64,000 nt of DNA from Dillenia suffruticosa. Its lineage: Eukaryota; Streptophyta; Magnoliopsida; Dilleniales; Dilleniaceae. The notes beneath the pieces were generated by a model. The model was not told the DNA's origin and did no database searches. It saw only the letters and a list, made by a program, of their open reading frames with translations. The stretch is from positions 12,570,001-12,634,000 of the forward strand of contig JAVTVX010000010.1 of NCBI GenBank assembly GCA_033439265.1. The letters run 5' to 3'. A program made the position numbers and the translations under genes. Shown piece after piece: positions 34,561 through 57,682 of this stretch (its first letter is position 1; every line of letters begins with the position of its first letter).

Positions 34561-35421
34561 TCATGTTTTACGTCTCTTGTTTCTCAGATTGCTCTTATTG
34601 AAACTCCTCAAATCATCCATTGTCTCTGCCGTATTCTGCTTCTTAAGACCTTTTCTTCCCCCATATCCGAACTTGGAATTTCTGAATTCCCTTTTATTCG
34701 CCTTCCTGTTCAATCCTTTCTTTCCCTTCCCACCAAATTGTCCAGCCTTACCTCCAGAGCGATCTCCAGGAGCAACTCCTGGCCTCTTCTTGCTTGATCG
34801 CTCAAATGCCTTTCCCTCTTCAAAATCCATAACCATATCCCCATCCTTGTGACCACCAGCAAAACCGTTCCGCTGCCTCTGCTTCCTCCACTTCTTCACA
34901 GATTCTATCATTTCTTTCTTCTGCTTAGCTCTCTCCTTCTGCTTCTCAGCCTGGACCTCTTTAGCCAGTTTCTTGGCCTCTCTAGCCTTCCTCTTCTCTT
35001 CTCTCTCCTCAATTTCTCTCTTCTCTGCCAACAGTGAGCCCCGAATCTTCTCCATGTGCGAATCTGTCTTCACCATCTCAGCATAATAGTCTGAGGGTCT
35101 AAGAAAGGGAAGCCCCATGGATTCAAGCTTCACAAATGCTTGTCTGGTCCCCTCTAAGGCCTGTGTAAAAAAAGAAAGCTCTCGTGCAATGTCATCTTCT
35201 ACATTGACGTCTTCCTGCGTATCAATGTCAATAGAAAGTTTGTGTATCCATTCAACATTGTCAGGCCAACTTATATCTCCAAGTTTATCAATGAGACCAT
35301 CCTTGTTATATATGGATTCTTTTGCAGGTTCTGCTAACCTCACAACTTCAGATCCCTCATATTCTGATTCAGATTCAGATCCAGATATTTCACCATTGAG
35401 ATCCATGTCATCATCAATCAT
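34561..35421 (-). CDS. EBP2: rRNA-processing protein EBP2 homologue
   Basis: EBP2 is a nucleolar factor for 27S pre-rRNA processing and 60S ribosome assembly. One coding exon of 286 residues (Arabidopsis about 293). The acidic N-terminus (SESESEYEGSE) is followed by the conserved core NKDGLIDKLGDISWPDNVEW, then ELSFFTQALEGTRQAFVKLE and FLRPSDYYAEMVKTDSHMEK. A Lys/Glu-rich coiled coil and KKWRKQRQRNGF come next. The typical C-terminal signature is KKRPGVAPGDRSGGKAGQ and NSKFGYGGRKGLKKQNTAET, with basic nuclear/nucleolar localisation sequence at the end. The frame extends upstream to a GTG, but a TAG precedes that, so the first ATG (35419-35421) is the start. An acceptor at 35466-35468 and a donor at 37320-37321 define a long 5'UTR intron. 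Confidence 0.93.
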   Translation of the reverse strand: MIDDDMDLNGEISGSESESEYEGSEVVRLAEPAKESIYNKDGLIDKLGDISWPDNVEWIHKLSIDIDTQEDVNVEDDIARELSFFTQALEGTRQAFVKLESMGLPFLRPSDYYAEMVKTDSHMEKIRGSLLAEKREIEEREEKRKAREAKKLAKEVQAEKQKERAKQKKEMIESVKKWRKQRQRNGFAGGHKDGDMVMDFEEGKAFERSSKKRPGVAPGDRSGGKAGQFGGKGKKGLNRKANKREFRNSKFGYGGRKGLKKQNTAETMDDLRSFNKSNLRNKRRKT

Positions 35422-35465
35422 TGTGTCCCTATTGAACAATGTCAAATCTGTTTTAAGCACCTAAT

Positions 35466-37430: not shown

Positions 37431-39704
37431 TCGCAAATAATTTAAAACATAATGTCTCGCCATTGGATGATTATCGTTAGGATTTTTGTTATTATTATTT
37501 TTTAGTTACTGCCTATGGCTATATAATAGAATCACTCACTATATTATTAAATAAATAAAACTATATTAATACGAATTATTACAAACTTTTAATTTATTTA
37601 GTCCAAACTATTTACATTCGAGCTATGATACTATATAGAAGTATTATTCATGAATTAATTAATTAAAATATAATTTATACATATTATCAGATTTTGTGTT
37701 ATAATGATTTTTAAGGCACATAGATTAAATTAGATTAAATTAAATCATATTATAGTTAAATATGATCCAAATTACATCTGCCATCATATTTTTGGCTTAA
37801 CAAATTACCCTTTTTCTTTCTAACCGTGAATTTGAAATATTTTTAAATAATTTTGATACCATTTTCGAAAGTATATGAAAGTATTAATTACTGGTTAAAT
37901 AAAAAATGATTTACAAGGTTATCAAATTTTATATTTTTGTGATAAATAGATTTCTATAAATATATTATATTAAAAATCTTGAATTCCTTCTTAGAAACTA
38001 AATGAAAAAATTGATCAATCATATATATATCTATAGAATTTTTTTAATATTGTCACTAATAATTTGTCATGGTAGTACTATTCCTCTGCTAAATATTACG
38101 TAAATTCTATCATTTGAATATTAATATCTACAAAAATAAAGCAAAATTATTAAAAAGAAAATCACTTTGGATGTTTTTTTTGTGGCTAAGAGATTTTTGG
38201 GTAAATTTTCAACTTTTGAAGGAATTTTTTTTTTTTTTTTTTGTGTGATCATTGGATTTCTATAAATATTTTATATTAAAAATTTAAACAAAACAAGAAG
38301 TTGTAGCAAATATAAAATTTCATATATTGACCATCTTATGATGGGCTCGTTCATGATAGCCCTTTTTTTTATATTAAAAATGATGAAGCAACAAGCTTCA
38401 AATATTGACCCTCAGGTTCGAGTCCCGGCCTGACATTGTATTTCTACATAATTTTTCCCCTTCAACCTATTCTACTTCTTTTTCTTTTTAATTAACAAAA
38501 TAAATATAAGTGAGAAAAACCTCCTGCTACTTGAATTTCATTGTCCTCCGATTGGCGAAAGATTATTGCTCGTCGGTAAGGTGGAGGTGATGTGGTTTTT
38601 TTTTTCTTTCTCTTCATTTAATTTTTTCTTTTTTAAATTTTTTTAATCATATAAATGTCAACAATCCTTGTCACTTGTCTTCATCTTCGTCTTCAGAAAC
38701 ATTAATAAAATAGATTTTGTTGTTAATTTCACGGAATGCATGCCTGCAGCGGTTGGGAAGACTCTTTAATGATTTACCTTTTTGCCCTTATTTTTTTAGA
38801 ATGGACTTCTTACTGTCATTGTGTGATGATTTGAAAGTTTGGGTATTTTTATCAATTTACCTACCTTTGTGCTTTTGGAAAAAAAAATAAATGAGGTCAT
38901 TCCTTTTGGTACTCATTGTTAACCTTCTGTGATTAGACTTTCTCTTCTAATTTTGTTTACCGTATAGATGGAGTAGTATGGCCGTGTTAGTTATTATAAA
39001 AGGGGGCCTCTCTGTCTCTTTCTCACTCTCTAAGGGGGCAAATAGAGACATTCAGTTACTCATTTTGAAAGTGATTGCTCTCTTTTCTGTTGCTCTATTG
39101 TGAATGTTTGTATTTGTCTTTCTCGTCTCTTAACATTTACTTTGTTCCACTTTATTCCACCTTTATTCTGTTTGCTGCTTTTTGTATTTATTTCTGATTC
39201 AAAAATGTTATTTTTTTTAGTTCTTATTGAGGAGAGTAGTATGTCTAATAATGATGATTGTGGTGTATGACGGCGATTCCTCTGTTATGAAGGTTGGTAT
39301 TTTTAATCATTTGTTTTATTTGGCGTTTGTTTTGCTACTCTTCGTGCTTATTGCTGAAGGTTTTTTTTTTTTTTTTTTCAGCTTATGGATTGTAGTGTTA
39401 TTTATGATGATGATATGGTGTATGGAAATTATCCTATAAAAGTTTGTGTTTGTTTCTTCATGTTTCAAAGTATGTGATATCGGGAAATTCGGTTTTCGTG
39501 TTGATTGTAAAAAACCGTTTACGGTTTAGAATTTTCATATATATGATTTTTGTATTTTGTGGGATATATAAGAATAGTTGATTTAAATATCAATGTAGTT
39601 TTTGTTCTTTGGGTTGAATTTTTTTTTGAAGCTCAATTGATGATTATTTTTAAATTTAGATCAACAGAAAGAAACAAGAGCATGAGAGTTTACAACTTAG
39701 GACC
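37431..39704. other. AT-rich intergenic region
   Basis: No supported gene. A promoter-like ataaaaggggg with a CT-rich stretch after it lies at 38996-39040. A short B-box-like ggttcgagtccc at 38414-38425 may be a SINE remnant. T-rich stretches at 38226-38241 and 39360-39379 break up the sequence. Confidence 0.4.
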
Positions 39705-42359
39705 GGTGTCGTGGTGTAGTTAGTTATCACATCAGTTTAACATACTAAAGGTCTTCGGTTCGACACCGGGCAATGCTATAAACTATTATTTTTACTTATA
39801 ATAAAGTTAATGACACATTATCAATATTATTCAAATTATTTCAATAAAAATAATCAAACAGATAGAAACTCTCAAATTCATATCAACAAAAAGAAACAAG
39901 AACAGAGTAGTTTACAATCCAGTGCTGGTGCTGTGGTGTAGGTGGTTATCACGTCAGTCTAACATATTGAAGGTCTTCGGTTCGAGTTCGAGTGACACTA
40001 TAAACTTTTATTTTTATTTTTAATATAGTTTCTGACACAATATTAGTATCTTTTTTATATTCTTCAAATTATGTCAGTAAAAATAATCAAACAGATGGAA
40101 ACTTCCAAATTTAGATCAACAAAAAGAAATAAGAATGGAGGAATTTACAGCCCAAGGCTAGATCGTGGTATAGTTGGTTATAATGTCAGTCTAACACATT
40201 GAAAGTCTCCGGTTCAAATCCCAGCGACGCCATGAACTTTTATTTTTACTTCAATATAATTACTGAGATATCATCAATATTTTTCAAATTATCCAAGTAA
40301 AAATAATAAAACAGATAGAAACTCACAAAGTCAGATCAACAAAAGAAATAAGAACAGAGGAGTTTACAACCCAGGGTTGGTGTCGTGGTGTAGTTGGTTA
40401 TCACGTCAGTCTAACACACTGAAGGTCTCCGGTTCGAGTCCGGGCGACGCCATAAACTTTTATTTTTACTTCTAAACAATTACTGACGTATTATCAATAT
40501 CTTTCAAATTATCTCAGTAAAAATAATTAAACAGATAAAAACTTTCAAACTCATATCAATAAAACGAAACAAGAACAAAGGAGTTTATAATCTAAGGCCG
40601 GTGTCGTGGTATAGTTGGTTATCATAACAGTCTAACACACTCAAGGTCTTCGGTTTGAAATCAGGAGATGTCATAAGCTTTTATTTTTACTTCTAATATA
40701 ATTACTAACACGTTATCAATATTTTTCAAATTATCTCAGTAAGAATAATCAAATAGATAGAAACTTCAAAAGTCAGAGCAACAAAAGGAAACAAGAATAG
40801 ATAAGTTTATAACCCAGGATTGGTGTCGTGGTATGGTTGGTTATCACGTCAGTCTAACACGCTGAAGGTCGCTGTTTCAAGTTGGGATGATGCCATAAAC
40901 TTTTACTTTTACTTCTAATACAATTACTGACACATTATCAATATCCTTCAAATTATCTCAATAATAATAATTAAACAGATAGAAACTCTCAAACTCAGAT
41001 CAACAAAAAGAAATAATAACAGAGGAGTTTACAACCCAAACTGGTGTCGTGGTGTAGTTGGTTATCACATCAGTCTAGTTCAAGTTCGGGCGATGCCATA
41101 AACTTTTATTTTTACTTCTAATATAATTACTGACACATTATCAATATTTTTCAAATTATCTCAGTAAAACTAATCAAACAGATATAAACCCCCAAAATCA
41201 GATCAACAAAAGGAAACAAGAATAGAGTAGTTTATAACCAATGGTTGGTGTCACGGTGTAGTTGGTCATTACATCAATCTAACACATTGAAGGTATCCGG
41301 TTCGAATCCGAGCGATGCCATAAACTTTTATTTTTACTTCAAATACAATTATTGTAACATTATCAATATTTTTCAAATTATTAAAAATAATTAAATAGAT
41401 AGAAACTCTCAAACTCAAATCAACAAAAATAAACGAGAATAAAAGGGTTTACAATCCACGGTTGGTGTCGTAGTGTAGTTGATTGTCACGTCAATTTAAC
41501 ACACTGAAAGTCTCCAATTTTGAGTCTGGATGACGCCATAAACTTTTATTTTTACTCTAAAATAATTTCTGACATATCATCAATATCTTTCAAGTTACCT
41601 TAGTAAAAAAAAATCAAATAAATAGAAACTTTCAAACTCAAATTAACAAAGAAACAAGAATAAGGGAGTTTACAATCCAGAGTTGATATTGTGATATAGT
41701 TGGTTATCACGTTAGTCTAACAAACTGAAGGTCTCCTGTTCATGTTCAGACGATGCCATAAACTTTTATTTTTACTTCTGATACAGTTCCTAACATATTA
41801 TTAATATTTTTTTTGCGTCCTTTAAGTTATATCAATAGAAATAGTTAAATAGATATAAACTCACAAATTCAATTCAACATAAAGATATAGGAATAGAAGA
41901 GTTGACAACCCAGGGCTGGTGTCTTGGTATAGTTGATTATTATGTCAGTCTACCACACTGAAGGTTTCCGATTCTAGTTCGGGCGACGCCATAAACTTTT
42001 ATTTTTATTTTTAATATAGTTCTTGATACATTATCAGAATAAAGGAGTTTACAATCCAGGACTGATGTCGTGGTATAGTTGGTTATCACGTCAATCTAAT
42101 ACACCGAAGGTTTTTGGTTTGAGTTCGGATGACATCAGAAAGTTTTATTTTTATTTCTAATACAGTTCTGGACACATTATCAATATCTTTTAAATTATCT
42201 AAATAAAATGATTCAAAAAGATAAAAATTCTCAAATTTAGATTGACAAAAAGAAAGAAAAAGAGAGGAGTTTATAACATGGGGTCGGTGTTATGGTGTAA
42301 TTGATTATCACGTCAGTCTAACACTCCGAAAGTTTTCAGTTCAATCTCAAGCAATGCTA
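39705..42359 (+). repeat. Tandem array of 13 tRNA-Val(AAC)-like units with conserved spacer
   Basis: Each unit has a 74-base tRNA-Val-like sequence then about 147 bases of AT-rich spacer. The spacer begins taaacttttatttttacttc and ends with variants of agaggagtttacaacccagg. tRNA-like parts lie at 39705-39778, 39927-40000, 40159-40232, 40379-40452, 40600-40673, 40822-40895, 41043-41098, 41247-41320, 41464-41538, 41685-41758, 41918-41991, 42064-42137 and 42286-42359. Start-to-start distances are mostly 217-233 bases. The seventh copy lacks 18 bases of its anticodon/variable region, and the spacer between the 11th and 12th is shortened. Most units keep TAACAC around the anticodon. All point the same way. 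Leftover spacer pieces continue to about 42760. Confidence 0.93.
40379..40452 (+). tRNA. tRNA-Val (anticodon AAC)
   Basis: This is the only unit of the array that folds without a defect. The acceptor stem GGTGTCG pairs with CGACGCC. The D-arm has GTGTAGTTGGTTATCAC. Anticodon stem TCAGT/ACTGA encloses the loop CTAACAC, anticodon AAC. The T-arm TCCGG-TTCGAGT-CCGGG is complete. Internal promoters are canonical: A box TGGTGTAGTTGG and B box GGTTCGAGTCC. There is no intron and no encoded CCA. A run of four T occurs about 10 bases downstream and could end Pol III transcription. Confidence 0.9.
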
Positions 42360-43164
42360 TAAATTTTTGTTTTTACTTGTAATATAGTTTGTCACACGTT
42401 ATCAATATTTTTACATCTTTCAAGTTATTTCAATAAAAATAATCAAATAGATAAAAACTCCCGATTATCTTTTTTGCACCCTTCAAGTTAGATCGGTAAA
42501 AATAATCAAACAAATAGAAACTCTCAAATTCAGATCTATTTGTAATTGATTCATTATCAGTATTTTTGCATCTTTCAAGCTTTCTCAGTAAAGGCAATCA
42601 AACATATAGAAACTCCCAAATATATATATATTTTTGCAACCTTCAAGTTATTTCAGTAAAAATAATCAAAGGGATGAACATTCCCGAATTCAGATCAACA
42701 AAATTAATCAAAGGGACGGACATTCCCAAATTCAGATCAACAAAATGAAACATGAGGTTTACAACCCCAATTTTTCTCATGAAAACCCAAGTCAAGAAAA
42801 GGAAAATATGAAAGAGAGAGCATTTAGAAAGACGATTCGGCGAACAATTTCGTAAATGGGAAGTAAAGGATATTTTCAATGGGCATTAGATTTGTTTGTA
42901 TTTCTTAAACGGAAATTTTCAAAGATAACAAATTAGGGTTTCACACAACAAAATCAACATAACAATTTTGAGAGAGAGGAAGAGGGAAAAGAAAGGGCCG
43001 AGAAAGTTCTGACTGCCGTCTGCCTTTGATTCAATCCGCAACCGTCGATTTGGGTTTCTTCCTCCGATCCCTCTCTCTCTCTCTCTATATATGTAAATAT
43101 AGTTAAGTGCAGAGTGAGCCGTGTAATCTTGCCCTCCGCTCAAAATAACAAGGCTAATTTTGTA
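42360..43164. other. Array tail and unassigned sequence before duplicated block 1
   Basis: Bases 42360-42760 hold several broken spacer copies of the tRNA array (aataatcaaa(c/t)agatagaaactc type) without tRNA parts. The rest has a CT tract at 43069-43086 and short open stretches with no recognisable protein. Confidence 0.5.
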
Positions 43165-43561
43165 ATTACGTTGCTTGACAGCCTGAAGAAAATGACTTGG
43201 CTTCAGTCATCCGTCGAACGACGCCGTTTCATTTTGGAGAACAGTCATTTCAAGTTCTGATAACCCCAAATTCAAATTCATCTGTTCAAATATTTCACCC
43301 GCTGACATGAATACCTACGAGAACGATTTCATTTCACTGTCACAAACGCTGCAAATCAAATTTTTATTTTATTTTTTTATTATATAAAATTTGAATCTAG
43401 ATCCTAAACTAAGAAAATAGAGATTATAACCACTAAATGATCAAATCAACTTTTATTATTATTCAAATAATTTGCCCCACAAAAGAAAAGACTGACCCAT
43501 GAGTAGAATACAAACATGATATAATGTTAACACCACCCAAAAACATTACAAACAACTTTTT

Positions 43562-43737
43562 CTACGCCAAGCCAAATACGATGAAACAATACTGCAGTAC
43601 GTAGGCGCACCGACACCAGGAACAGAAACAGCAACCCTGCATATGGAAACAAAAGAAGCAGCAATATTTAAAATTTTGTTGAAATTATATAGTCACCAAC
43701 GAAGGGCGGTGGGCACGGCGAATTGTCCTAAAACTTT

Positions 43738-43770
<33 letters not shown>

Positions 43771-44159
43771 GTATGTATAATATTTTTAAAAAAAATAAAA
43801 ATCTATATATTGTCTGCTTCATAAAAAAAATTATAACTTTCAATGATTTAAAATGATACTTCTATATTAAGTATTTAATGTATGAAACAAGGTGGATTAA
43901 AGGTTTTAGACCATAAATACGAAGGAATTGAGAAAAAGAAAATGGAGGAAGCCGACCTATAGAATTTATAGTTTTTTTTTTTTATTGGAGAAAATAACAT
44001 AAAAATCATACTCACCACAAATGATGCCGACCTGAACCAACATGTCAAAGCAACCACTGAGACAGAATTGCTATCGTGGCCTCCACTAGAGCTATAAGAT
44101 GTCTGCCTCCCCCTAAATATATTAGAAATCATTTTTTTCTCTCTCTCAAGAATTATCAT
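43562..44159 (-). CDS. Candidate two-exon small Cys-rich membrane peptide (hypothetical)
   Basis: Exon 1 at 44016-44159 ends with a good donor (TTTGTG|GTGAGT). Exon 2 at 43562-43636 starts after ATATGCAG. Together they would encode 72 residues ending in a short Cys-rich hydrophobic tail (CCFCSWCRCAYVLQYCFIV). The shape recalls small plant CYSTM-like peptides, but I see no sequence match. In block 2 the start of exon 1 is missing and the stop codon of exon 2 is lost, which argues against strong selection. It is offered as a possibility only; a chance pair of open stretches is the alternative. Confidence 0.2.
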
Positions 44160-44882
44160 ACGTTTTCATACATGACATGGCTATACCATTGTTTATAGAT
44201 AACTTAAAATTTTATTTATGTCATAATCAACAAAATATCAGACTAACTTTGAATATATTAGTGAATAGAATAGGTATTAAGCAAAATTATGTTACACAAA
44301 ATTATTATGGTATTACAAATATTATGTCTGATAATTAGTAGCAGTCTTGAAGAATTATCAATACTCCAACAATATATTGATGAACCATGTGCGAACAAAT
44401 TAAGAGATCAATTTGTATATATTAGGTTATTTCATCGTATTATCAAAACATATTTTTAGAAATTCTGTTTTATACATGGATTTGTCATTGTGAATACTAA
44501 CAAAAATAGCAATCATAATGGTATAATTTAAAGCTAAAACGGTACCTCCTATGGCCATTTGAAAGTTTTATTGTGTTACGATATATTATATATTAAAATC
44601 AAATCAATAATGTTATATTCAATTATAATTAATATGGTATTAGAGTTATATTTAAATATTTTATTAATATGATATCAGTGTCATGTTAAAAGATTTCTAA
44701 TATGATATCAGATTCATATTCAAATTTATTTTTCATGGTATCATATATATGTCCATATATTGTCTATATGATATTAGAGTAACATTTAAATTTAACTTGT
44801 CGGATATATTGTAAACAATCTAAAATATCTTCGCACCTTTATTATCATCACCAAAGTAGTCACCTCTACAAAGCAGCTTGAA

Positions 44883-45392
44883 TCAATCCTCGTTGCAAAG
44901 AATCGAATGGCATGCATATACAGTGACACCTGTGAACGCCGCCACAGCTGCAGCCAAAGCATACAAGTATACTTTGATTACGAACCACTTGAAAGCATCC
45001 GGCCTTGGCACAATCTCATGGTTTGAATCATTCGGTACAACAGTCGAACCATTTGTGGGAAAAGTTGCGATTTTTCTAAGAACGGTTTCATGATCGATTC
45101 TGTTGAGGTCAAGCTGATACCTGGACCGGTAATATGTAACGATTGTGTTTGCAAAGGTGGGGAAGTAGATGAAAGTGATGAGGAGAGAAATTGTAAAAGG
45201 AACCCACGAGGGAGAGCAAGAAAATGTTGGAGATTTGTTGATGGATAACAAAACTATTGCTTGTAAAAAAAGGTAGGATATAATCATCGTTGTGGCCTTG
45301 ACTTCCAGTCGGTTCACCCTTTCCTCGTGCCTCTGGTTGATTCCGCTTATTTCTTTCGAGACTTGCTTTAGCTGCTCCAAACTTCTATCCAT
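44883..45392 (-). CDS. Uncharacterised small membrane protein, family member A
   Basis: I do not recognise a named family. The 169-residue protein starts with an amphipathic, probably coiled-coil segment (SLEQLKQVSKEISGINQRHE, then ERVNRLEVKA). Hydrophobic segments lie at about 32-50 (IISYLFLQAIVLLSI), 58-84 (WVPFTISLLITFIYFPTFAN) and 142-164 (YLYALAAAVAAFTGVTVYAC). Between the last two lies the conserved motif RYQLDLNRIDHE and a Pro/Asn-rich loop. It ends CHSILCNED. The frame is open 37 codons further up (MPRTFSAFWR), but the paralogue at 47.6 kb starts at the position equal to MDRSLEQ, so I chose 45392. Single exon. The same protein with about 10% changes is encoded at 61300-61809. Function unknown. 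Confidence 0.75.
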   Translation of the reverse strand: MDRSLEQLKQVSKEISGINQRHEERVNRLEVKATTMIISYLFLQAIVLLSINKSPTFSCSPSWVPFTISLLITFIYFPTFANTIVTYYRSRYQLDLNRIDHETVLRKIATFPTNGSTVVPNDSNHEIVPRPDAFKWFVIKVYLYALAAAVAAFTGVTVYACHSILCNED

Positions 45393-47561
45393 ACTTTTAT
45401 CAACCGAAAGAGAGAAGCTTATGTGAAAAGTGCCCCGAATGAAAGACGCAAGGGCTGTCTGGCAATTTATAATACGCCAAAAGGCCGAGAAAGTACGTGG
45501 CAAGTTACTAAAAACTTATTGCTTGGACAACAATTAATAAACACAAAATAGTATACCAAATGAATTTTGTGGCCAATGCCTTCCAAACGAAGATTCTTTA
45601 GACTTAGAGCTTTAAAAGGAAGCTGCTACATTGGATAGACAAGTTAAAAGGTTACTCGTTCAATTTTTTATGTTCTTTTCTTTTTCTTTTTTTCTTTTTT
45701 AAAATAATGATCGATTGTGAATCAAATACTTGTTCGCATCGAGATTTGTGACCTACAAACTATACAATAGGGATAATATCATTTATATAATCATTAAATA
45801 AATTTTAATTATTTAAAATTCGAAGTCGCATTAATAAAAAAGAAAAAAAAGTTACCATGCATACAATTGGGAGGGTGTATCTAACTTAATATCTTTGCAA
45901 GCGGAAGTTGCACTTTGGCGGGCCCAAGGTTATTATCAACTTGTATAAGACATTTCCTTATGAGTTAAATATTTGAAATAACATAAAAATCCTGGTTATC
46001 TTATTAATAACATAAATATTCTTAATTTTTATGATCTCCAAATTATTTATGGTTAGAGAGATTTGAACAGCCATATTAGCACCACGTAATGCCGCGTGAG
46101 TGTCATATCACTACAACATTAACATATTTTAAAAACTATTTTTGACTAAAAAGTTTGACATTTCTACGTAATGTTCACATGGGCGTTCAAAATTCTATGA
46201 CAAGAAGTAATTTGAAAGTGACACTAAAATATATATTATTTATATTTTTAATGTGATAATCATAATTTTTACCAAATAAAATTAAAATTTTCAAATTTGA
46301 TAAACAAAACAATTAAGATAGTACGGTGTAAAGCAAAGGTTGGATTGAGTTCATTACGTAGATCTATTTTTCAAAATATATATATAAAAAGACCACATAA
46401 ATCTAACGATCTATTTGGAAAAATTTAACAATAGGCACCACTGAACTATTTAATATAAAAGATAAGGATACATAACAATAAACTCTTAATTGTTTTTATG
46501 TTAAAATTTGATTTTACTTGTAAGGTTGTATATTTTTTTATAAAAAATATTTTTCTGAAAAGTATAATATATTGAATAAGACAAAATATAGATAAGTTAG
46601 ATGAAATTGGAATGGATGAACGCGAAAACTGTAGGTGGAACATTTGGAAGAAAATGACATCATCCTATCTTTTGTTTCCAATGTCCACGTCAATGCATCA
46701 ATTGATATGCACGCCAGGTTGCACATATTTTATCATGTACGCGGAAATGGAAAGCGACTGTTTATTATTTTATGTCTAACCTTGACATTTCCGTTGGGAG
46801 TTCTAAATTGGAGTTTTATTTTGTTTTAATTAAAATATTTTTTACGCGGAATCGTAACTATCAAAATTTTGAACTCATTTTACTTATTAATTTGATTTCG
46901 ATAATAAATTATTTTCTAAAAACATCTGCAAAGCAAATAGATAGGATTTATTCTTTATTTTTATTTTGTGAATAATATTATTTGTAGAGTTAGAATTAAA
47001 TTTTACATATATATTTTTCTAATTCTTAATCCAAAAAATTTAAGTTTGAACCAACTTTAGAAATTTCTGTAGAGTTGATTTTACTTTCCAACACAAAGTA
47101 TTTCGAATAAATACGTAAAACTTGCATCAAATAAATATGATGTTAGATCAATAGCAAAATATAGTTGTAACTTAAATTGAGTATTTATAGTCTAAATGAA
47201 GATAGTGATCCAAAAAAACAGTTGTTTGGAGAAAAATGAAAACCCCAATCAAGCTAATAGAAGATGTAAAGTAAAACTCAAAATTCAATTTTGGGTAATT
47301 AAGATTTATTTATGGCATTTTTTTGGATTATGCATATTGGATCGATTTACCAATAATATACAAGGAGCTTTCCGCCATTATTAATCATAAAGAAAAAGTA
47401 CATGAAACATTAGATGCACACAAAGTTATAGATTTATTTCAATGACAAATATAAAGTTACACACCGAAAAATATGTATTTCACATGTTTGTAGAGATTCC
47501 AAATACATGAGAGACTACCAACTAAATGCTCTAGCAAATCTTTGTTGCATCTTCTTCAAGG

Positions 47562-48068
47562 TTATACACATGCAATGGAGCAGCAAGCATATAGAATCAT
47601 GCCGGTGAAGGCAGCCAAGGCTAAGAGCACGACAATAATGTAAACCTTAAACTTAAACCACTCGACCTCATCGGGCTTAATGATCACTTGCCTAACCCCA
47701 CTTGCTCTCGCCTTGCCCGTCTCCATGTCAGGTGGCTCTGAGGTACACATCTCTCTCGCGATCGATTCTTGATCAATTCTATTCAGATCCAATTGATATC
47801 TCATTTTAAAATACATAATAACTGTGTTTATAAAAGTTATACCATAGATGATCGCGACAGTGAGCGAAACTATGAAAAATATCCAACGATGTTGGCATTC
47901 GAGCGTTGTGGCATCCTCGATGGATGTTAGGATTATGGATTGGAAGATGGCATATGCTATAGTGAGTGTAATGGCTCTTGTTTCCAATAAATTGACTCGC
48001 TTTTCTTGTCTCTCATTTATGCTTCCCCATTCTTGGTAGTCCCGCTGCAGCACATCTAGGCTCCTCAT
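47562..48068 (-). CDS. Uncharacterised small membrane protein, family member B
   Basis: A 168-residue paralogue of member A with the same plan. The coiled-coil N-terminus has QRDYQEWGSINERQEKRVNL. Hydrophobic segments lie at about 32-50 and 60-84 (IFFIVSLTVAIIYGITFINT). The family motif is MRYQLDLNRIDQE. A loop with METGKARASG precedes a last segment VVLLALAAFTGMILYACCSI near the C-terminus. Single exon with its own ATG. Upstream (about 48170) there is tttatataaag, a plausible TATA box about 100 bases from the start codon. The 3' part is repeated without change at 63828-63962 in block 2, where a 10-base gap follows. Likely in a cell membrane, function unknown. Confidence 0.75.
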   Translation of the reverse strand: MRSLDVLQRDYQEWGSINERQEKRVNLLETRAITLTIAYAIFQSIILTSIEDATTLECQHRWIFFIVSLTVAIIYGITFINTVIMYFKMRYQLDLNRIDQESIAREMCTSEPPDMETGKARASGVRQVIIKPDEVEWFKFKVYIIVVLLALAAFTGMILYACCSIACV

Positions 48069-48100
48069 TTTTGAGGCAGAAATTGTTGGAAGAATGATTC

Positions 48101-49331
48101 GAATGGTGAAAGCAATGAGCTAAAAGAAATTGGAAGGAGCGATGGATTAAGAGCAGAGGTTTATATAAAGGCAATGCCAATAACCGACTAATTAAACACC
48201 CTAACGTGTAGAGCTCCCTCTGGAGTCATTGCCGTGATGACCAAGTTGGGCATTTCCTTTCTACTTGCCCATAAGGGAAATTTCCTAACATTTTACCCAA
48301 GGCCGATTACTTGTCGTGGTAGAGTCATATAATATTGTAGGAAAATTATAGCGAATTTCCTAGGTTTCTTTGCCTGATGACCTAACTGGCATTTGCAATC
48401 CAAATGAAGAATGAGCAGGGATAGGGATAGATACATGAAAATGTTGTCGAAATTTTGATGTGAACACATTGACGTGGAAATTCCGGGTTTTCTAGTGTGA
48501 ATATTAATGTTAAGAGTAAACTTCATGCTAATAAATTATATTTTAATTGATACCGTCTCTCTTTCCATAGAGATATTGACTTTAAGTTCGAGCTTCCTTA
48601 TATATATATAAAAAAAAGAGGTAAATTCTATAGTTAAAAGGACATGATCATGTAAATTATAAAACATGTTTTCATTCAATAAACATAGTAAAGCTTGGCG
48701 ACCTTAACAACAACGAATTCCAAACATCTTGCAACAATCTAAAGGAAATAGGAGATCCATCAATTTGATTTGTTTTAATTTGCTTTTGTAGATCATTTGT
48801 TTTGCTTCTCTTGTTTGGTAGATGCGTTTTTTTGGATTATTATTGATCTAAAAAGCAAATGAAGAGGAAAATAGCAAAAGTAGAAGTAGAAGTAGACACA
48901 GAGAAGAATGAAAGAAATAAATAACAAAAACTTTACTTGCAGCAGCCATCGTTTAGTTTCATCCCTAACTTGATTTGATTTTGACGTGCCAGAGGGAGGG
49001 AAGAAAGAAGGAGAGGAGTCCCCAAGGAGACAGTTTAGTGGTACAAACCCTCTTCCCCAATCTAGTAATCCCAAATTTAAATACTTATACAACAAAAAAA
49101 AAAATGAAGGAGAGGAAGTGAGAGATGCCGCAAAAAGAAACAACATTGGGTTTGAGAGAAAACGAAGACAGAGTTTTAAGATGTTTGGTTTAAATTATAA
49201 AGAAACTTAATAAGTTAAAATTCTACCGAAATTAGAATTAAAATTCTTATATTTTTGATAATTAAGTTATTGTTGTAACTATTTTTAAATAAAATAAAAA
49301 ACTATATACTTTTTAAATAATTTTAAACTAA
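48101..49331. other. Promoter of member B and AT-rich intergenic DNA
   Basis: Bases 48101-48250 are the likely promoter of member B. The remainder is AT-rich. A 117-codon open stretch on the minus strand at 48793-49146 is low in complexity (Phe/Leu/Ser-rich) and matches nothing I know, so I do not call a gene. Confidence 0.4.
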
Positions 49332-50130
49332 GTTAAAAATAGAAAATAATAGTATGAATATGAAAGATAGGCAAATATAATAGTGATACTATATTAGAGA
49401 TGAAGTGTAATATAATAATATGAATTTAATATTCCATTAACTCAATAAATTATTATAATAGATTGATTTTATATAGAAAACTCAGTATTATAAATATAAA
49501 AACAATTATCATAAATATAGAAATATAAAAATAAAAAAATCAAATATGTATCAAAATTAAATTAATAATTTACTTGATTTTATATATAATATATTTTTTA
49601 ATATTCTATCAAAATGTACGATGAAAATCATTTTAATTTGAAAGGGAATTTGGATAAAGCATCTAAAATCATATGGGGTGTTTTTGCAACCCTTGTGCTA
49701 TTTTTGACTCTGGTTCTACCTCTACCTTTGGCTTTGGATTTGATTTTGGGGGGCAAGTTCAAGTTTAGGTTCAGGGTCAAGCTCAAGTAGGCTCATGATC
49801 AGGCTTTTGGCTTTTGCTCTTGATTCTGGTTGTGATGTTGGATTTAGCTGTAATTGATCTGGTTCTAACATTGGTTTTCACTAAAAACACGTGTGAGTGT
49901 GTGAATAATTTTTTTTGTAAATAAAACTCTGATACCAAATTTATAATATATAAAATAATAATATAAATATGAAAGATAGATAAACATGATTATGATATGA
50001 TATTAGAAATGAAGAGTAATATAATCAAATAAAAACTAATAATTCAGTGTCTTAATGAATTATTATAATAAATTGAGTTTATATAAAAAATTCATTTTCC
50101 TAAATTAGGAACAGTTATTATAAATAAGCA
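49332..50130 (-). mobile_element. TRIM-like miniature LTR element (fossil)
   Basis: Two direct repeats of about 190 bases (49332-49521 and 49943-50130) flank about 420 bases. Next to the right-hand repeat, on the minus strand, is TTGGTATCAGAG (49931-49943 region), the usual primer-binding site for plant initiator Met-tRNA. The element therefore reads on the minus strand. The repeats are clearly diverged by eye and no capsid or polymerase frame is present, so it is old and non-autonomous. Ends are approximate. Confidence 0.55.
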
Positions 50131-50595
50131 TCCTAAATAATATAACTTTATACTTTAAATTTTACTTGAAAAACAAGGACTTGTTCATCTGCTGTTGCAC
50201 ACAGAAACATGTCGTGCATCCCCAAATTCGGCACTTCCAAAGCCACTCTTAATTAAACTGGGTGCGGGTAATCTAAGAAGAACGTTATATACTTGGGGCG
50301 GATCGGGTCCCATATAACTCATCAAAAGCTACCAACTCACTTCTTTTCTTCACTTTTTCAAATATTTCACGATCTTGGTTGGTGGGCCCACTCACACATC
50401 GATTACGCCAGCGGCACGTGATTATCCTGAGGGACCATCACATCACACCTGACGGTCACGATTTCATCAGAGAAATCTCTCGCACCACATTTATACATCT
50501 GTCCCAACCGCCTGCCCTTGCCGCTCACATTACTTTCTACTTCTGGAGAGAGGTAAAGGTCCTGCTAGTGTTCGTTTGTGTGATCGGCACGAAGA

Positions 50596-53500
50596 ATGGC
50601 GACGATCAAGTTTGTTAAAGCCCGACAGATCTTCGACAGTCGTGGAAACCCTACCGTCGAAGTCAGTCTCTCTCTTCGTGTGGTTTTTTGATGTATTCTG
50701 TAGATACGTCTCTTAGGATGTAGCGATCTCACATTCTTTTGAGGGAGAGATGATTAATGAGTGCGTTGGTTTATTTTCAGGTTGATATTACTTTGTCGGA
50801 TGGAACTGTAGCTAGGGCTGCTGTTCCTAGCGGTGCTTCTACAGGTAAATAAAAATAGTTGTTGTTCCTAATTTCTTCTGGAATAAGAAATGGGCTAGTC
50901 CGATTTTGTTGATCGTTTGTTTGTTTGTGTGTGTATAAATCTACTCAGGTGTCTATGAGGCTTTAGAATTGAGAGATGGAGGGAAAGACTACCTTGGCAA
51001 GGGAGTCCTCAAGGTATTAATGATACTTACTACACTTTTTGGCCTTTATTGAAACGAGAAATTCCGGGCATCCTCAAGTCTTGGTTGAGTCCCTTTCTGG
51101 TGATTCTCAGTTGTGGATAGTGAAACGAGAGGATTGCGTACATCAGGGTTTTGTGTTCTCAATTTTCTCCTACGACGTGAGGATTTCATGTCGTGGGTTC
51201 TTCACTACGTGGGTGTTTGTAGACCTCATTTCTGCCCTTGAAGCTAAAACTTCTTTTAAGTCGCACTCGAAATAACCATTGTTTTGATTTCCTTTAAGCA
51301 CGGGATTGCTTCAGAAAATTTCTTAAGAATTTAAGAGGGGTTTCTTTTTATTTTTGTCAACATTTTAGAGTGAAAAAAGGAATTATCAGAATATTCATAT
51401 GTGGGGGTTGGAGTTTTTGGCATCATGTTAGTTTGATTATTTCTCGTGCATTTGCATAGAACCAGTTCTTATCTGTTTAATATTAGCATTTTGGTGGTTT
51501 ATAATTGGCCGTGATACTGTTTGTGCAGGCTGTGGATAATGTGAACTCTATCATTGCACCGGCCTTGATTGGAAAGGTATTCTGCATAACTGAGTTTATT
51601 CCACCTCGTCCAATTCTTAAGAGGAGTATGGTTATTGTTTTAATTAATTGATGCTATTCATATAAACAGGACCCAAGAGAGCAGACCAACATTGACAACT
51701 ACATGGTTCAACAGCTCGATGGAACGGTAAATGAATGGGGCTGGTGCAAGCAAAAGGTACTACATGTTCTCGGGTTATGATGATTTGTTTGCGTGTGTTG
51801 TTGTGACTTTTTGTTAATTTGAGTTTTACTGATCGTCCTTTGTCAGCTTGGAGCAAATGCTATATTGGCAGTGTCTCTGGCTGTTTGCAAAGCAGGAGCT
51901 ATGGTGAAGAAAATCCCTCTTTACAAGGTATCCTGGTGGCTATCTAGCTGCATATTTGTCATTTTCATGCCGCAACATTCTCTGTGTCTGACATGGTTTT
52001 GCTTTTATGGTGTTGATGTCCCCAGCACATTGCTGAACTGGCTGGAAACAAGAATTTGGTGCTTCCTGTACCTGCATTTAATGTCATCAATGGAGGTTCT
52101 CATGCAGGCAATAAATTGGCAATGCAGGTATTTCTTACCATAAAATAAAATTCAGCCATGTTGATATATTTTAATGGCTTAGATTCTTAAAGCACCACTT
52201 GTCATAGGAATTCATGATTCTCCCAGTCGGTGCTTCTTCTTTCAAGGAAGCCATGAAGATGGGTGTAGAAGTTTATCATAATTTGAAGGTAGCTATTGTT
52301 TTTGCTTTACCCTGATTATTATGTTATGATATTAGTGGATTGGAGGTCTAAACTTTCTTAATTTCTCCATTATCCAGGCTGTAATTAAGAAAAAGTATGG
52401 TCAAGATGCCATCAATGTTGGTGATGAAGGTGGCTTTGCCCCTAATATTCAGGTCCTTATCTTCTCTTTCTTCCATTTAGGTTTCTTGGTTGTATGCTGT
52501 TTTGACTCTTCTATACGGTAGTAGTATATTAGCTCTACTAATCCTATGGACAGGAATTAGTTTCAGCATGTCATTTTAATGGAACCTATTTTGAATTTTT
52601 TTTCCCTGGATCAGTATCTTATTTTTCATCAAAGTTTGCTTTTAAGACTTTTTTGTGACATAAATAGTATCCGGCCACCATGTTCTCTTTGATTTCTTTA
52701 TGGCATACTATCCATGGCTGACTGGATTCTCATGCATCACATGTGATAGGAAAACAAAGAAGGTCTTGAACTGCTGAAGACAGCTATATCAAAAGCAGGA
52801 TATACTGGGAAAGTGTGTTTCTTTCGCTCTAAGCTGCTATATTGTATTATTCTGGATACCTTTCTGACTTTATGCGTCTCATTCTAATATTTCATTGCAC
52901 CTTCCTGTTTGTGCAGGTTGTTATTGGAATGGATGTGGCTGCATCTGAGTTCTACAATGGTGATGATAAGACGTATGACCTGAACTTTAAGGAAGAGGTA
53001 GTTATCATTGAATAAGCTTTGTCATGCTCTGAAATTTTGTGGTTCTGACATGTATTTTTTTTTTTTTTAACTGCTGATCTTTCTGGTGTTACCTCTTTCT
53101 CTTTGATGGTGTTAATATGCCCTGGCCCAGCCATTCCAAGGCACCTTTGGGCCAAGTGGTGATTGCCAAAGTAAAATCTTAAAGAGTGGATTTGTTAGAG
53201 GATTGATGTATGTTAAATATCTTAAGACTGGAGTCAGTTTCCAGCATGGCATGGGGCTTAATTAAATGATCTCTTCATTCTGAAATTAGCAAGCTGAGTG
53301 GTGTCTTCTACATGCAGAACAATGATGGATCACAAAAAATATCCGGAGATGCCTTGATAAACATTTACAAGTCATTTGTAAATGAGTACCCCATTGTTTC
53401 CATCGAGGACCCTTTTGATCAGGATGACTGGGAGCACTATAAGAAGCTGACAGCTGAAATTGGTCAGCAAGTACAGATAGTTGGTGACGATCTTCTTGTC

Positions 53501-54452
53501 ACAAATCCCAAGGTATCTTTCATTTATTTTGCGTGTTACAAATCCTAACGGTACATTAGAAGCGATCTTTATTTGACCACCCAATCTGTATGGCTTTGTG
53601 CAGCGCGTGGACAAAGCAATCAAGGAGAAAGCATGCAATGCCCTACTTTTGAAGGTTATCTTCCCGCTTCTTTTTCCTTTGAAGGATCCATAGCGTTGTC
53701 TTTTTAGCTCCTTTTCTTGTTAAATGGCTCAAATATTCTCACTGTCTGCAAAAATACTTACTGTTGCTTAGGTAAACCAAATTGGTTCTGTTACTGAAAG
53801 CATTGAAGCAGTTAAAATGTCCAAGCATGCTGGTTGGGGCGTCATGGCCAGTCACAGAAGGTACAGTATCCATTATGTCGTGTCCTCTCTTGTGCGGTTA
53901 AATTACATTAGGCACTTTTTCCCTATCCTTCCACTTTTGCTTGTTGCAGTGGTGAAACTGAGGATACTTTCATTGCTGACCTTTCTGTTGGTTTGGCAAC
54001 GGTAAGTTGCTCTTTTGAAGTTCTTACATTAATTCATCTTATTCCTTGAAATTTTTACCCTAATGTTTCTGTTCATTCCATGTCTGTGTTGAAGTGCGAC
54101 CTCAAACTATTTGTTATGGTTGTCCTCTCACAACCAATCTCAGCAATCTATCCCACCCCCATCCTGGTTGCCTTGTTAAACTATCCTTTATTGAAATGAA
54201 AATTTTAGGTTTGTAGTCAAAGAAGTATGTCTTGACGCTCATGATTATAAAATGATTATTTAGACTTATTCAATGGGAATTTTGAAAGCACAGGGCCAGA
54301 TAAAGACCGGTGCTCCTTGCAGATCTGAGAGACTTGCTAAATACAACCAGGTAATTTTTTGTCCTCCAGCTTCTGGTGCAGCTTAATAGGTGCATTCTGA
54401 AATGGTCTTTTCACAGATGGCTACTGAAGTTAATTTGTTGACATACACACGT

Positions 54453-54530
<78 letters not shown>

Positions 54531-54787
54531 GAATAGATGGGCAAATATGACTCTTCCCTTTTGTCTTTAGCAGGCTTAAGCTGCAACTTAATATTAGTTA
54601 GTCAAAAATTAATTTTATTGTTATCTCCATGTGGCCATTGTTGTTCCTTGGTTATATCCACTCTGCAACTTAATTCCAGGCCTATTTTCATCTTTCTTTT
54701 CTGCAGCTTCTTAGGATAGAGGAAGAATTGGGAACTGCAGCCGTATATGCAGGAGCAAAATTCCGGGCACCAGTGGAGCCATACTAG
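50596..54787 (+). CDS. ENO2: Enolase (2-phosphoglycerate hydratase), cytosolic ENO2/LOS2 type
   Basis: Converts 2-phosphoglycerate to phosphoenolpyruvate in glycolysis with two Mg2+. Seventeen exons: 50596-50661, 50781-50844, 50949-51013, 51529-51576, 51670-51756, 51847-51927, 52026-52127, 52208-52288, 52378-52452, 52750-52812, 52917-52997, 53318-53512, 53604-53654, 53772-53860, 53950-54001, 54294-54350 and 54707-54787, totalling 1338 nt or 445 residues. Active-site elements are all present: mobile loop PSGASTG (38-44), His163 in [14 protein letters not shown], Mg ligands Asp250 (GMDVAASEF), Glu301 ([10 protein letters not shown]) and Asp328 ([10 protein letters not shown]), catalytic Lys353 (LLLKVNQIG), His381 (SHRSGETEDT) and Lys404. 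The plant-type insert EWGWC follows the mobile region. There is no transit peptide, hence cytosolic. Met93 (NYMVQQLDG) lies at the position of the alternative start that gives MBP-1 in Arabidopsis. The final intron but one has a long CA repeat. Confidence 0.97.
54454..54528. repeat. (CA)n microsatellite in an enolase intron
   Basis: A perfect CA tract of about 37 units in the intron between exons 16 and 17 of the enolase gene. It should be highly variable in length. Confidence 0.97.
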
Positions 54788-55528
54788 ACTCTGATGTGAT
54801 GCCGGATATCCCTAAGGAGCTTCATAGGTTTATGCTTTTATTTGAAGCGTTATGTATTTTTGGAAATGAAAAAATATGAGCGGCAGCTATTGAGAGGCCT
54901 GGAACTTTTGTAGATAGGTAAATTCAAAATATGGAAGCTAGAGGGGTGTATGCTTGAACACGTTCCCCTAGTGGTGGTTGTCAAACTGAGTCTTCTAAAG
55001 TATATGTTGGTGTGGATCTTTGTTTCGTTTGTCAAGTTATTTGAGCTTCTTTTGGTGCACCTAGAGTAGTCGCGGTAAGAAGCAATACTCTCAGTCAACA
55101 ATTTCTTTCCAAGGTCTTAGACAGCAAAGATTGCAGAAGGAACATTATCTCACAATATTACATAAATTTTTAGTAACTTAAAAAAAAATTACTGGCAGAG
55201 GACAACACTACAGCATTACCGCACCTGGTTATAATCACTTTAATCCGTCCCGTGGCTATGGGTACAATGGCCGTGGGTGTGAGTATGATGATGGGGTATT
55301 AGAATATTTTAGTTAAAATTTTGATTTTGAAACTTGGGATAAAAAAAGCAATCAACATTTTGAGTTTTAAATTTTGAGAATGAGAATCTTGGAATTAAAA
55401 AAGTAATCAATATTTTGAATTTAAATCTTGTGAGGGAAAAGGTAAGGTAGTTTTTAAATTGGGCTTCAGAGTTATTATCAATCAAGTTTTTGGAGAATGT
55501 AGTCAACTAAACGAAAGTAATAATCAAT
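54788..55528. other. Enolase 3'UTR and spacer
   Basis: The first 300 bases or so are the likely enolase 3'UTR. From 55300 to 55530 there are three diverged copies of a 45-60 base unit containing attttgaattt / ttgagaatgagaatcttgg. No gene is seen. Confidence 0.4.
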
Positions 55529-55614
55529 TTAATCTTCGTTGCAAACGATGTAATGGTACGCGTATGCGGTCACAACCATAAATGCAACCAAACCCGTGGC
55601 CAACTAGTACAAAT

Positions 55615-57682
55615 TGTCATGACCCAGAAGCGAGGAAAGAAGAAAGAGGCTTACTAAGCGGCCATGCTTTGAGAAACATGAAAAAACAGAGCACGAAGCA
55701 GAGCCCGTGAACTGTCAATTTCATGCATCTTAAAGGATGGATCGATTATAAAAGAAATATGGTAAAGAGTTATAGAATGAAATAAGGGTTGAGGATCAAC
55801 ACTTGTGAGATAAATATATTCGTCTCTTAATTAGATCAGGAGTTTGATTCCTCTAGACACGAAAAAAATAATATTAGGAGACTTGTTCCAAAATGAGCTC
55901 TGCAACGATCGATCTAAATTATTCCGGATATTGAATGGTGATCAAATCAAGATACAAAAAAAAAGGGTCGAGGGAGAAAGGAAAAATAGTTATACAAAGA
56001 GAGAGAAAGTAGGGTTTGAAACAGAGGAAAACAGAACAAATTCATCCAAATTCTTTATTCTTTTTTATCAAAATTGATACATCATTTATACATTACTCTA
56101 ACTAATGACCTAACAATCTAATAGGTTTAACCAATTCTAGTTATAATCCAACTATCTATAATATATGTATCGACGGTTGGTAGTTGAATGGGAGTTAGCC
56201 GTTTACATTTGAACTCTTTCCTATTATAATATCCTCTCTCTTTTTTACATCCTTGTCTTCAAGGATTAAAAAAAAATGAAAAAGAAAAGAGAAACAAAAC
56301 CAGAGAATTAAACTTCCTAAGCTACCTTGACAAGAACAGCATATGCAGGTCCGAAAACAGAGTGTGAAATAGCCGAAATTTTGCATTTCAGAGAATTTTT
56401 GTTTTTTTGTTTTTGTCTTTTTCTTCTTCTTCTTCTTATATTTCATATTCTTCTTTTTCATCTTCTTATCTTCCGATTCTTCTTCAACCAACTTCTTAAG
56501 TTCCCCCATAGTTTCTTCTATTGGTACCACCTGATGCCAATAGTACAGATCCATATAATTCACATCAAGACGCTTCAGGTTAGTATGACAATAAGTACGA
56601 ACATTTTTTGAACTACTCTTCACTATCATACCGGTAGGCCCTATTCTTGCAATACCAAACGTTGTGACTAACTGGATTTGGTCTTTGGGCAATTGATTTA
56701 TGGTCTTTCCAACCAGGATTCATTAGCATGTGATCAATAGACGTCAGCTTTATCAAAGAATATAATCCCATTATTGAAAACATGTTCCAATTCGCTCAAA
56801 CTTTTCATCTCTTGAACAGAACTTGGAATCTCGTTGGACCCTTGTTGGTTTCTCAACCTTGAGACAATCCAACTTCATCTTTCCACCGTCTTCACATTCT
56901 TTATCAATAGAGATAGCCAAGATGCAATCTTTACCGTAAGGTTTAGGTCCATCATTGACAGATCCAGAAATTCTTGATGGGGATTTATCAAAATCTCACT
57001 CAAAACTACTATTAGATTTTTTTTCAATTTCTTGCTCCTTTTCTATCAAGATTTTGTTCTCATCGATACCAAACATTTTTAATAGAATATTAAATTTTTC
57101 ATCAATGTGTAGCATGATAGTGTTCATTCTTTTATCATGCTTCTCCATTTCTTTCTTCCATTCTTGGCTGCAAATCTCTAGTTCTTTTTCATATTTCTCA
57201 AGCCAATAATTTTTCACCATTGATGATGTGTGATGTCGAGGAACAACTACTCTGATACCAATTTATAATGACCTAGCAGTGAGGAAAGAAGAAAGAGGCT
57301 TGCTTAGCAGCCTTGCTTGAGAAACATGAAAAAACGGAGCATGAAACCAGCAAGTGGGGCACGTGAGCTGTTAAGTTTATGCACGTTAATGGGTAGATTG
57401 ATGATAAAGAAAATGTTGTAAAGGGTTGTAGATTGAAAGAAGGGTTGAGGGAGAAGGGAAAGAGAGAGTTAAAGAGAGAGAAAAGAAAAGAGAGAGTGGG
57501 GTTTAGAGAGAGGGAGAAGAAACAAGGGAGAGACGAGCAAATTCATCTAAATTCCTTATTCATCCTTATCAGAATTGGAACATCATTAACCAACTCTGGA
57601 TATAATCCAACTAACTACAAGAGTTAGTAGTTGGTTGTGAGCTAGCCATTTGCATTTGAAATTCCTTCTTCACACGGTTACA
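55615..57682 (-). mobile_element. Non-autonomous LTR retrotransposon carrying an aldo-keto reductase fragment (fossil)
   Basis: Element of about 2.07 kb read on the minus strand. The 5' LTR is 57264-57682 and the 3' LTR is 55615-56231, the latter lengthened by a nested SINE. Outer ends are TG...CA with a 5-base target duplication CAAAT at 55610-55614 and 57683-57687. A primer-binding site TGGTATCAGAG follows the 5' LTR (57250-57260), and a purine-rich tract (about 56232-56246) precedes the 3' LTR. The inside has a Lys/Glu-rich gag-like coiled-coil stretch (57000-57220) and, at about 56490-56830, a degenerate piece of an aldo-keto reductase (MGELKKLVEE, LKRLDVNYMDLYYWH, IFFDKADVY). No protease, integrase or reverse transcriptase is seen. 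The LTRs are clearly diverged, so the insertion is old and the element is broken. Confidence 0.8.
55794..55964 (+). mobile_element. SINE nested in the 3' LTR
   Basis: About 171 bases absent from the other LTR, flanked by gggttgag (55786-55793) and gggtcgag (55965-55972), a target duplication with one mismatch. The insert ends in a run of A. It includes a Pol III B-box-like gtttgattcct at about 55851, as in tRNA-derived SINEs. Confidence 0.75.

Follow-up and report, generated by a model that had tools for sequence, protein, structure and literature searches.

Here we describe a decayed tandem array of tRNA-Val(AAC) genes in a 64-kb stretch of Dillenia suffruticosa DNA (contig C10, JAVTVX010000010.1, positions 12570001-12634000; hereafter the window, to which coordinates without a contig refer), part of a 596.36 Mb assembly (GCA_033439265.1). 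The array occupies 39658-42462 on the plus strand and holds 13 head-to-tail units of about 222 bp (range 146-233), each a tRNA-Val(AAC) copy followed by an AT-rich spacer. Very probably it is a tRNA-Val satellite that was amplified, then went unmaintained and decayed neutrally, leaving one survivor, and was copied by segmental duplication. The first-pass annotation of this DNA had already suggested a relic of tRNA gene amplification, a proposal that the clonal units, the neutral decay and the single survivor all support.

Units of the array and the intact gene

The same annotation had described 13 head-to-tail units of about 220 bases, each pairing a tRNA-Val(AAC) copy with an AT-rich spacer, and this architecture was recovered by Tandem Repeats Finder (TRF), BLAST and a unit profile search alike. 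TRF reported one array at 39658-42036 (period 222 bp, 10.7 copies, 76% matches, score 2187) and a second, overlapping row that reaches 42182. With the best tRNA as query, BLAST returned 13 tRNA-Val-like matches in the window, from 39705 to 42342 and all on the plus strand; the downstream spacer as query gave 18 rows, 17 of them in or at the array and a single exception at 9046-9102 (E 0.007). The unit profile recovered 13 units, the last ending at 42462, together with spacer remnants lacking a tRNA up to 42688 and one weak match (E 0.77) up to 42731. Since a profile of the canonical tRNA only gave no match at E ≤ 1 on the searched strand of window positions 1-39000, a chance origin of the array is not a serious option. 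No higher-order period was found in the window array, where the identity between units stays level at 0.78-0.79 across lags 1-6.

ARAGORN calls four tRNA-Val(AAC) genes in the array (at 39705, 39926, 40378 and 41246), and two units, 40379-40452 (60.9 bits) and 41247-41320 (31.6 bits), pass the curated Rfam threshold of 29 bits. Three of the four ARAGORN calls fall inside 749 bp and so form a cluster by the rule used for plants (at least three tRNA genes within 1 kb); at the Rfam threshold, which only two units pass, no such cluster is formed. The B box GGTTCGANNCC is kept in units 1, 4 and 8, its consensus being lost in the other ten, and T-runs of at least four bases, read from the sequence, stand 3' of all 13 units.

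Unit 4 is identical to canonical tRNA-Val(AAC) at all 74 positions and is the only such unit of the 13, so the earlier reading of a single intact unit is right in the strict sense; as a valid tRNA it is called by both ARAGORN and Rfam. At the sequence level it has what a functional gene needs, namely the cloverleaf, the A and B boxes and a T-run terminator. Its 54-nt core (bases 10-63) has 83 exact copies in the genome, against 0 for a backward-pattern control. The other units average 12.8 changes per 74 tRNA sites. Unit 4 is probably a usable yet redundant gene, and on balance we would expect it to be transcribed. The features of the array and its right flank are given below; the boxes, the CAAC and the T-runs of unit 4 were read from the sequence.

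39705..39778, + strand: unit 1 tRNA-like copy; 11 of 74 sites changed
39927..40000, + strand: unit 2 tRNA-like copy; 11 of 74 sites changed
40160..40232, + strand: unit 3 tRNA-like copy; 11 of 73 sites changed, 1 base deleted
40367..40370, + strand: CAAC upstream of unit 4
40379..40452, + strand: unit 4, intact tRNA-Val(AAC) gene; 0 differences from canonical; Rfam 60.9 bits; ARAGORN call
40386..40397, + strand: A box region of unit 4
40431..40441, + strand: B box of unit 4, GGTTCGANNCC
40458..40467, + strand: T-runs TTTT and TTTTT just 3' of unit 4, resembling an RNA polymerase III (Pol III) terminator
40600..40673, + strand: unit 5 tRNA-like copy; 14 changes
40822..40895, + strand: unit 6 tRNA-like copy; 12 changes
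41043..41098, + strand: unit 7 tRNA-like copy; internal deletion of 18 nt, 4 changes in 56 sites
41247..41320, + strand: unit 8 tRNA-like copy; 11 changes; Rfam 31.6 bits
41464..41538, + strand: unit 9 tRNA-like copy; 12 changes
41685..41758, + strand: unit 10 tRNA-like copy; 14 changes
41918..41991, + strand: unit 11 tRNA-like copy; 10 changes; shortened spacer, giving a unit of 146 bp
42064..42137, + strand: unit 12 tRNA-like copy; 14 changes
42286..42359, + strand: unit 13 tRNA-like copy; 19 changes
42477..42731, + strand: tRNA-less spacer remnants at the 3' edge of the array; matches at 42477, 42542 and 42639, with 42676-42731 only at E 0.77
43168..55655, no strand: block to the right of the array that is segmentally duplicated; second copy at 58479-71628, some parts repeated once more past the end of the window

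Decay and duplication of the array

Decay was assessed in 20 units, that is, the 21 units of the two arrays on C10 (the second is described below) minus unit 4, each compared with the canonical sequence. In the window array, mean pairwise identity is 0.761 in the tRNA, 0.715 in the 48 bases upstream of it and 0.83 in the spacer downstream; the corresponding values for the second array are 0.721, 0.703 and 0.82. The tRNA parts of the 20 units carry 251 changes, 196 of them C>T or G>A, and at C/G sites such changes are about as frequent in the tRNA (196/812) as in the spacer (185/790; unit 4 excluded). Sorted by context, the changed sites of the tRNA amount to 75/269 for CG, 50/154 for CHG and 62/331 for CHH (end sites without a context excluded); minus two sites with a possibly ancestral T they amount to 65/249, 39/135 and 62/331, and Fisher tests then place CHG over CHH at p 0.019 and CG over CHH at p 0.042. 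A per-site test of CHG, with all sites kept and eight CHG sites among them, gave p 0.0096. Spacers, judged by majority consensus, have CHG 69/253 and CHH 117/562. In nearby segmental duplicates CG is raised and CHG is not (CG 88/916, CHG 35/1045, CHH 270/6196, counted over five aligned blocks, some of which overlap so that some bases count twice). This pattern of C>T, CG and CHG changes is consistent with the array being silenced and its cytosines methylated, methylation being read here from the mutations themselves.

Base pairing points the same way. In 18 decayed units, unit 4 and two units with long deletions being excluded, 295 of 356 cloverleaf pairs are retained, against an expected 296.9 ± 5.2 when the changes of each unit are redistributed randomly. 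No hidden constraint on the dead units was thus found by the pairing test, and they behave as neutral; by their sequence, the 12 other window units look like neutral pseudogenes. The spacer of unit 4 is the least diverged (7/147 changed), and scaled to that spacer its tRNA would be expected to carry 4.45 changes (P 0.012; test chosen after the fact) where it carries none. Similarly, C>T-type changes affect 6 of 42 C/G sites in the spacer of unit 4 and 0 of 42 in its tRNA (one-sided p 0.013). As these tests were picked because the unit is intact, they give a hint of constraint or of recent conversion, not proof. A clear case of selection on unit 4 was considered and set aside, its support being weak once the young spacer and the choice of the unit as intact are allowed for.

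The 'rearranged right side' of the first-pass annotation is real: the block at 43.2-55.7 kb is repeated at 58.5-71.6 kb on the window scale. The pieces match at 81-98% identity, and at 91-98% to the right of 44.7 kb; some parts of the block occur once more from about 73.7 kb (81-92% identity). The second array lies at 71.6-73.7 kb on the same scale (C10:12.6416-12.6437 Mb) and has 8 near-full and 3 partial units; a further remnant at C10:12663473-12663798 retains spacer but, of a tRNA, just the final bases. In a tree of 21 units (13 from the window, w, and 8 from the second array, s; the partials at 72289-72374, 73327-73379 and 73590-73664 left out), the units of the two arrays are not split into two groups, and the pairs w03-s01, w04-s02, w09-s05, w10-s06 and w11-(s07,s08) are collinear between the arrays. 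The window array is therefore taken to predate the segmental duplication, and we take this to mean that the duplication later copied it downstream. Identity between window units declines with the distance between them (Mantel r -0.31, p 0.018), as expected if the edges of the array are oldest.

The segmental duplication also holds similar, partly hydrophobic open reading frames, all without a Pfam match, at 44883-45515, 61300-61944 and 47562-48119, each on the minus strand. Other genes in the window encode a PC-Esterase (Pmr5/Cas1p-type; 17439-18266), an EBP2 rRNA-processing protein (34561-35460) and an aldo/keto reductase fragment (56195-56719).

Tandem tRNA arrays elsewhere in the genome

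The first-pass annotation knew of no Val(AAC) array like that of the window, a statement overtaken by far larger tRNA-Val arrays in the same genome. The 83 exact cores divide among C26:844-914 kb (46), C26:3513-3537 kb (12), C9:13.816-13.872 Mb (15, including one that lies 23 kb away from its neighbour), the window (1) and solo loci (9). We fetched the large arrays at C26:843-914 kb and C9:13.832-13.880 Mb. In the 71 kb from C26, a tRNA-only profile found 298 copies at a spacing of 202-240 (5th-95th percentile), 151 strong and 147 weak ones alternating almost throughout; in the 48 kb from C9 it found 115 copies at a spacing of 232-238, mostly with one strong copy in every four (33 strong, 82 weak). 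Reversed controls gave 0 in both. Autocorrelation peaks at 233-236 and 911-913 in C26, which has a further period of 1824 bp, and at 235-236 and 940-941 in C9. The copy spacing and these peaks lead us to see in C26 and C9 a single tRNA-bearing monomer arranged in higher-order repeats of four copies, a structure that the window array does not have.

ARAGORN typed 77 AAC (33 canonical), 64 UAC and 4 other tRNAs in C26, and 29 AAC (10 canonical) and 12 UAC in C9, where the UAC copies carry 14-16 changes. The UAC genes of C26, which mostly alternate with AAC, are 1 to 6 sites away from the AAC gene, one of these sites being the anticodon base, from which we infer an anticodon change within the array. 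Between C26 and C9, with 12 units sampled from each, the AAC tRNAs are 0.965 identical, with flanks at 0.767 and 0.720; to judge from these values the AAC tRNAs look constrained, in contrast to those of the window. The array at C26:3513-3537 kb is a further one of the C26 kind, with 8 AAC and 8 UAC genes in the 8 kb fetched.

Such arrays extend to other tRNA types. A first look at the genome with the Rfam tRNA model, in which 63 of 49,706 candidates were scored, showed clusters on several contigs including C1, C13, C11 and C2, and ARAGORN typing of fetched pieces gave Ile(UAU) on C1 and C13 and Cys on C11 and C2. Val, Ile and Cys had therefore been seen to cluster before any counting. The other four types were chosen blind: Pro, for which clusters were already known from plants, and Asp, Ala and initiator Met, which were meant as dispersed controls but all had arrays. 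The names Ile, Cys and Val come from ARAGORN; those of Pro, Asp, Ala and Met are putative and follow from the patterns used. Patterns with at most one mismatch matched 167 times for Val, 230 for Pro, 232 for Asp, 191 for Ala and 115 for initiator Met, and exact patterns 36 times for Ile and 110 for Cys. All seven types counted have tandem arrays and all have solo copies as well; the 1081 matches in total include near-copies that may be decayed, and array copy numbers are those of the assembly. Backward patterns gave 0 matches for all seven types and, with every counted type positive, are the only controls.

Ile arrays at C1:4.318-4.360 Mb (intervals of about 810-819 bp where dense) and C13:16.690-16.717 Mb hold 29 of the 36 exact copies. 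A Pro array at C8:4.338-4.410 Mb has at least 96 copies, with AGG and UGG alternating over most of it at 433 + 498 bp. Among the matches listed, Cys has an array at C11:12.579-12.708 Mb (unit 1160 bp); Asp has three, at C8:7.611-7.687 Mb (about 1.21 kb), C10:2.105-2.164 Mb (1573 bp) and C12:28.593-28.606 Mb (about 1157 bp); Ala has four, all on C30 (7.39-7.41, 8.24-8.32, 11.64-11.66 and 20.07-20.09 Mb; units of about 1363-1405 bp); and initiator Met has arrays at C16:6.938-7.014 Mb (2612 bp) and C24:4.678-4.719 Mb (about 470 bp), with four copies 200-314 bp apart at C20:24.5376-24.5383 Mb. A Cys tRNA cluster is also present at C2:10.460-10.467 Mb. C32 (356,815 bp), which may be organellar, has two equal-scoring tRNAs at 40192 and 250419, the first a tRNA-Lys(TTT).

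We consider it likely that this genome keeps most of its tRNA genes in satellites, much as Entamoeba does, with arrays of about 10-130 kb in all seven types counted, isoacceptor pairs born within arrays (Val AAC/UAC, Pro AGG/UGG) and higher-order repeats of four copies, where tRNAs that look alive stand beside others that look dead; in such a life cycle the window array would represent the final stage. Should the tRNA genes of a plant lie mostly in satellites, its tRNA supply would depend on concerted evolution and array silencing, not on dispersed genes. The three Val systems form a graded series (strong copies 151/298 in C26 and 33/115 in C9; canonical copies 1/13 in the window), which lets one ask when homogenisation of an array stops and silencing and loss start. 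The alternating AAC/UAC pairs suggest a route to a new isoacceptor, namely one anticodon change followed by spread inside the array.

Origin of the array and relation to known systems

We propose that the array began as a single functional tRNA-Val(AAC) gene which, along with about 148 bp of its flank, was multiplied head to tail into a satellite of 222-bp units, by what may have been unequal crossing-over or replication slippage. Upkeep of the array would then have stopped, and the tRNA copies would have mutated at about the rate of the spacer, mostly from C to T, as in methylated, silenced DNA, methylation again being suggested by the mutations. Twelve of the 13 units would thereby have lost the canonical sequence, with unit 4 keeping it. 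A later segmental duplication would have copied the array downstream. The window array would be an old instance of something this genome does repeatedly, namely holding several tRNA types in long tandem arrays.

Several points weigh against this account. The CHG excess in the tRNA part rests on eight sites. In the unit tree, a single inner branch out of 18 is starred. When units are matched by plain identity, six of the eight second-array units (s01, s02, s04, s05, s07 and s08) pair best with unit 4, which is the partner in order of only one of them, s02; we attribute this to unit 4 having changed least. As the spacer of unit 4 is also the least diverged, the intactness of its tRNA may partly be youth. 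Lastly, conservation between C26 and C9 does not extend to the UAC copies (identity 0.808).

A functional array kept by selection, whether for tRNA supply or for tRNA fragments, would account for the canonical unit 4 and for the CAA-like upstream sequences and 3' T-runs kept in most units, CAA motifs being described upstream of plant tRNA genes (PMC11700998). We nevertheless regard it as very unlikely: the decayed units carry no pairing constraint, their tRNA parts evolve like spacers, and 73 of the 83 exact core copies sit in three other arrays, so that tRNA supply does not need the array in the window. We give still less credence to the array being a boundary element, of Pol III or chromatin type, that separates the gene-rich left side from the duplicated right side. 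The array does flank a tandem segmental duplication on the left, and a human tRNA repeat at 1q23.3 has been proposed as a boundary (PMC4041453); however, the B-box consensus is gone from ten of the 13 units, and the position is equally well explained by repeats promoting recombination.

The units also resemble a tRNA-derived short interspersed nuclear element (SINE) in having a tRNA head and an unrelated AT-rich body, and such an element might have been inserted or duplicated in tandem by chance. A genome search with the 137-base spacer only (8 first-look candidates, all scored) found it at 20 places, 19 of them in the 54 kb of C10:12.6100-12.6637 Mb and the sole non-local one a 65-bp match at C10:24591839, and none of ten fetched solo tRNA-Val loci had the spacer at E < 0.01, one having an E 3 match about 0.8 kb from the tRNA. 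Thus the dispersed copies with a shared body that mark an ordinary SINE were not seen, and the tRNA is complete to its 3' end, with T-runs within a few bases. SINE origin, rejected for the present assembly unless copies lie in sequence missing from it, is the least credible of these alternatives. Less remote, though unlikely, is that the arrays of C10 branched off from the C26/C9 satellite and diverged; with it they share the same tRNA and a similar unit length (222 against about 235 bp). A profile from all 109 C9 spacers gave 117 matches in C9 and 301 in C26 at E < 0.001 and 0 in the C10 arrays, and, conversely, 11 of the 13 window spacers used as queries had no match in C26 or C9. Shared ancestry of the spacers is therefore unsupported in both directions, the C9-to-C26 search serving as power control. 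The window array is, as far as the spacers tell, an independent, senescent example of an amplified and abandoned tRNA-Val satellite.

Three surveys of tRNA clusters group genes at 1 kb. Bermudez-Santana 2010 (PMC2888827) did so, as did Monloy and Planta 2024 for 69 angiosperm genomes, with the rule of at least three genes applied above and with Pro, Tyr-Ser and Ile clusters, the longest of 28 Ile genes (PMC11700998), and Zhang 2025 for 50 plants, with clusters of 2 to 110, Val among the same-amino-acid pairs and a Val-Glu-Phe repeat in a bryophyte coded Cpu (PMC12652284). With such grouping the Cys, Asp, Ala and C16 Met arrays, most of whose intervals exceed 1 kb, are not grouped, and arrays with units of 1.16 to 2.6 kb would mostly escape these surveys and may be common. 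Seven patterns alone gave 1081 matches here, near-copies that may be decayed among them, compared with 565 tRNA genes per species in the last survey (28,262 genes in 50 species; PMC12652284). We found no prior report of a plant genome with tRNA arrays of such extent or higher-order structure in the mainly open-access literature searched. While plant tRNA clusters are known, the extent and the higher-order structure here exceed their usual descriptions.

The Arabidopsis Cys cluster has a pseudogene at its edge (PMC10701932), and the Arabidopsis SYY cluster is reported to be methylated, with mCG > mCHG > mCHH (PMC12308677). Like the plant clusters (Tyr-Tyr-Ser, Pro and Cys in Arabidopsis, Ile in maize), the window array consists of head-to-tail tRNA genes with repeated spacers; unlike them it is of Val(AAC), has 12 of 13 units decayed and belongs to a genome with arrays of seven types. 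Alphoid-type satellites form higher-order repeats, and C26 and C9 likewise repeat a multi-monomer unit of diverged monomers, whereas their monomer holds a tRNA gene and the window array has no higher-order period. The human repeat at 1q23.3 is also a tandem tRNA-bearing one, but its 7.3-kb units are GC-rich and bind CTCF (PMC4041453), the window units being 222 bp long and AT-rich. To conclude, the window array is a genuine decayed tRNA-Val satellite, ordinary in kind, whose interest is raised by its genome. That genome differs from Entamoeba in being a plant's, in having solo genes too and in showing no TRF repeats of period up to 500 in one 10-kb piece each from C26 and C9, but it shares with Entamoeba the presence of many tRNA types in tandem arrays across one genome (PMC2652664).

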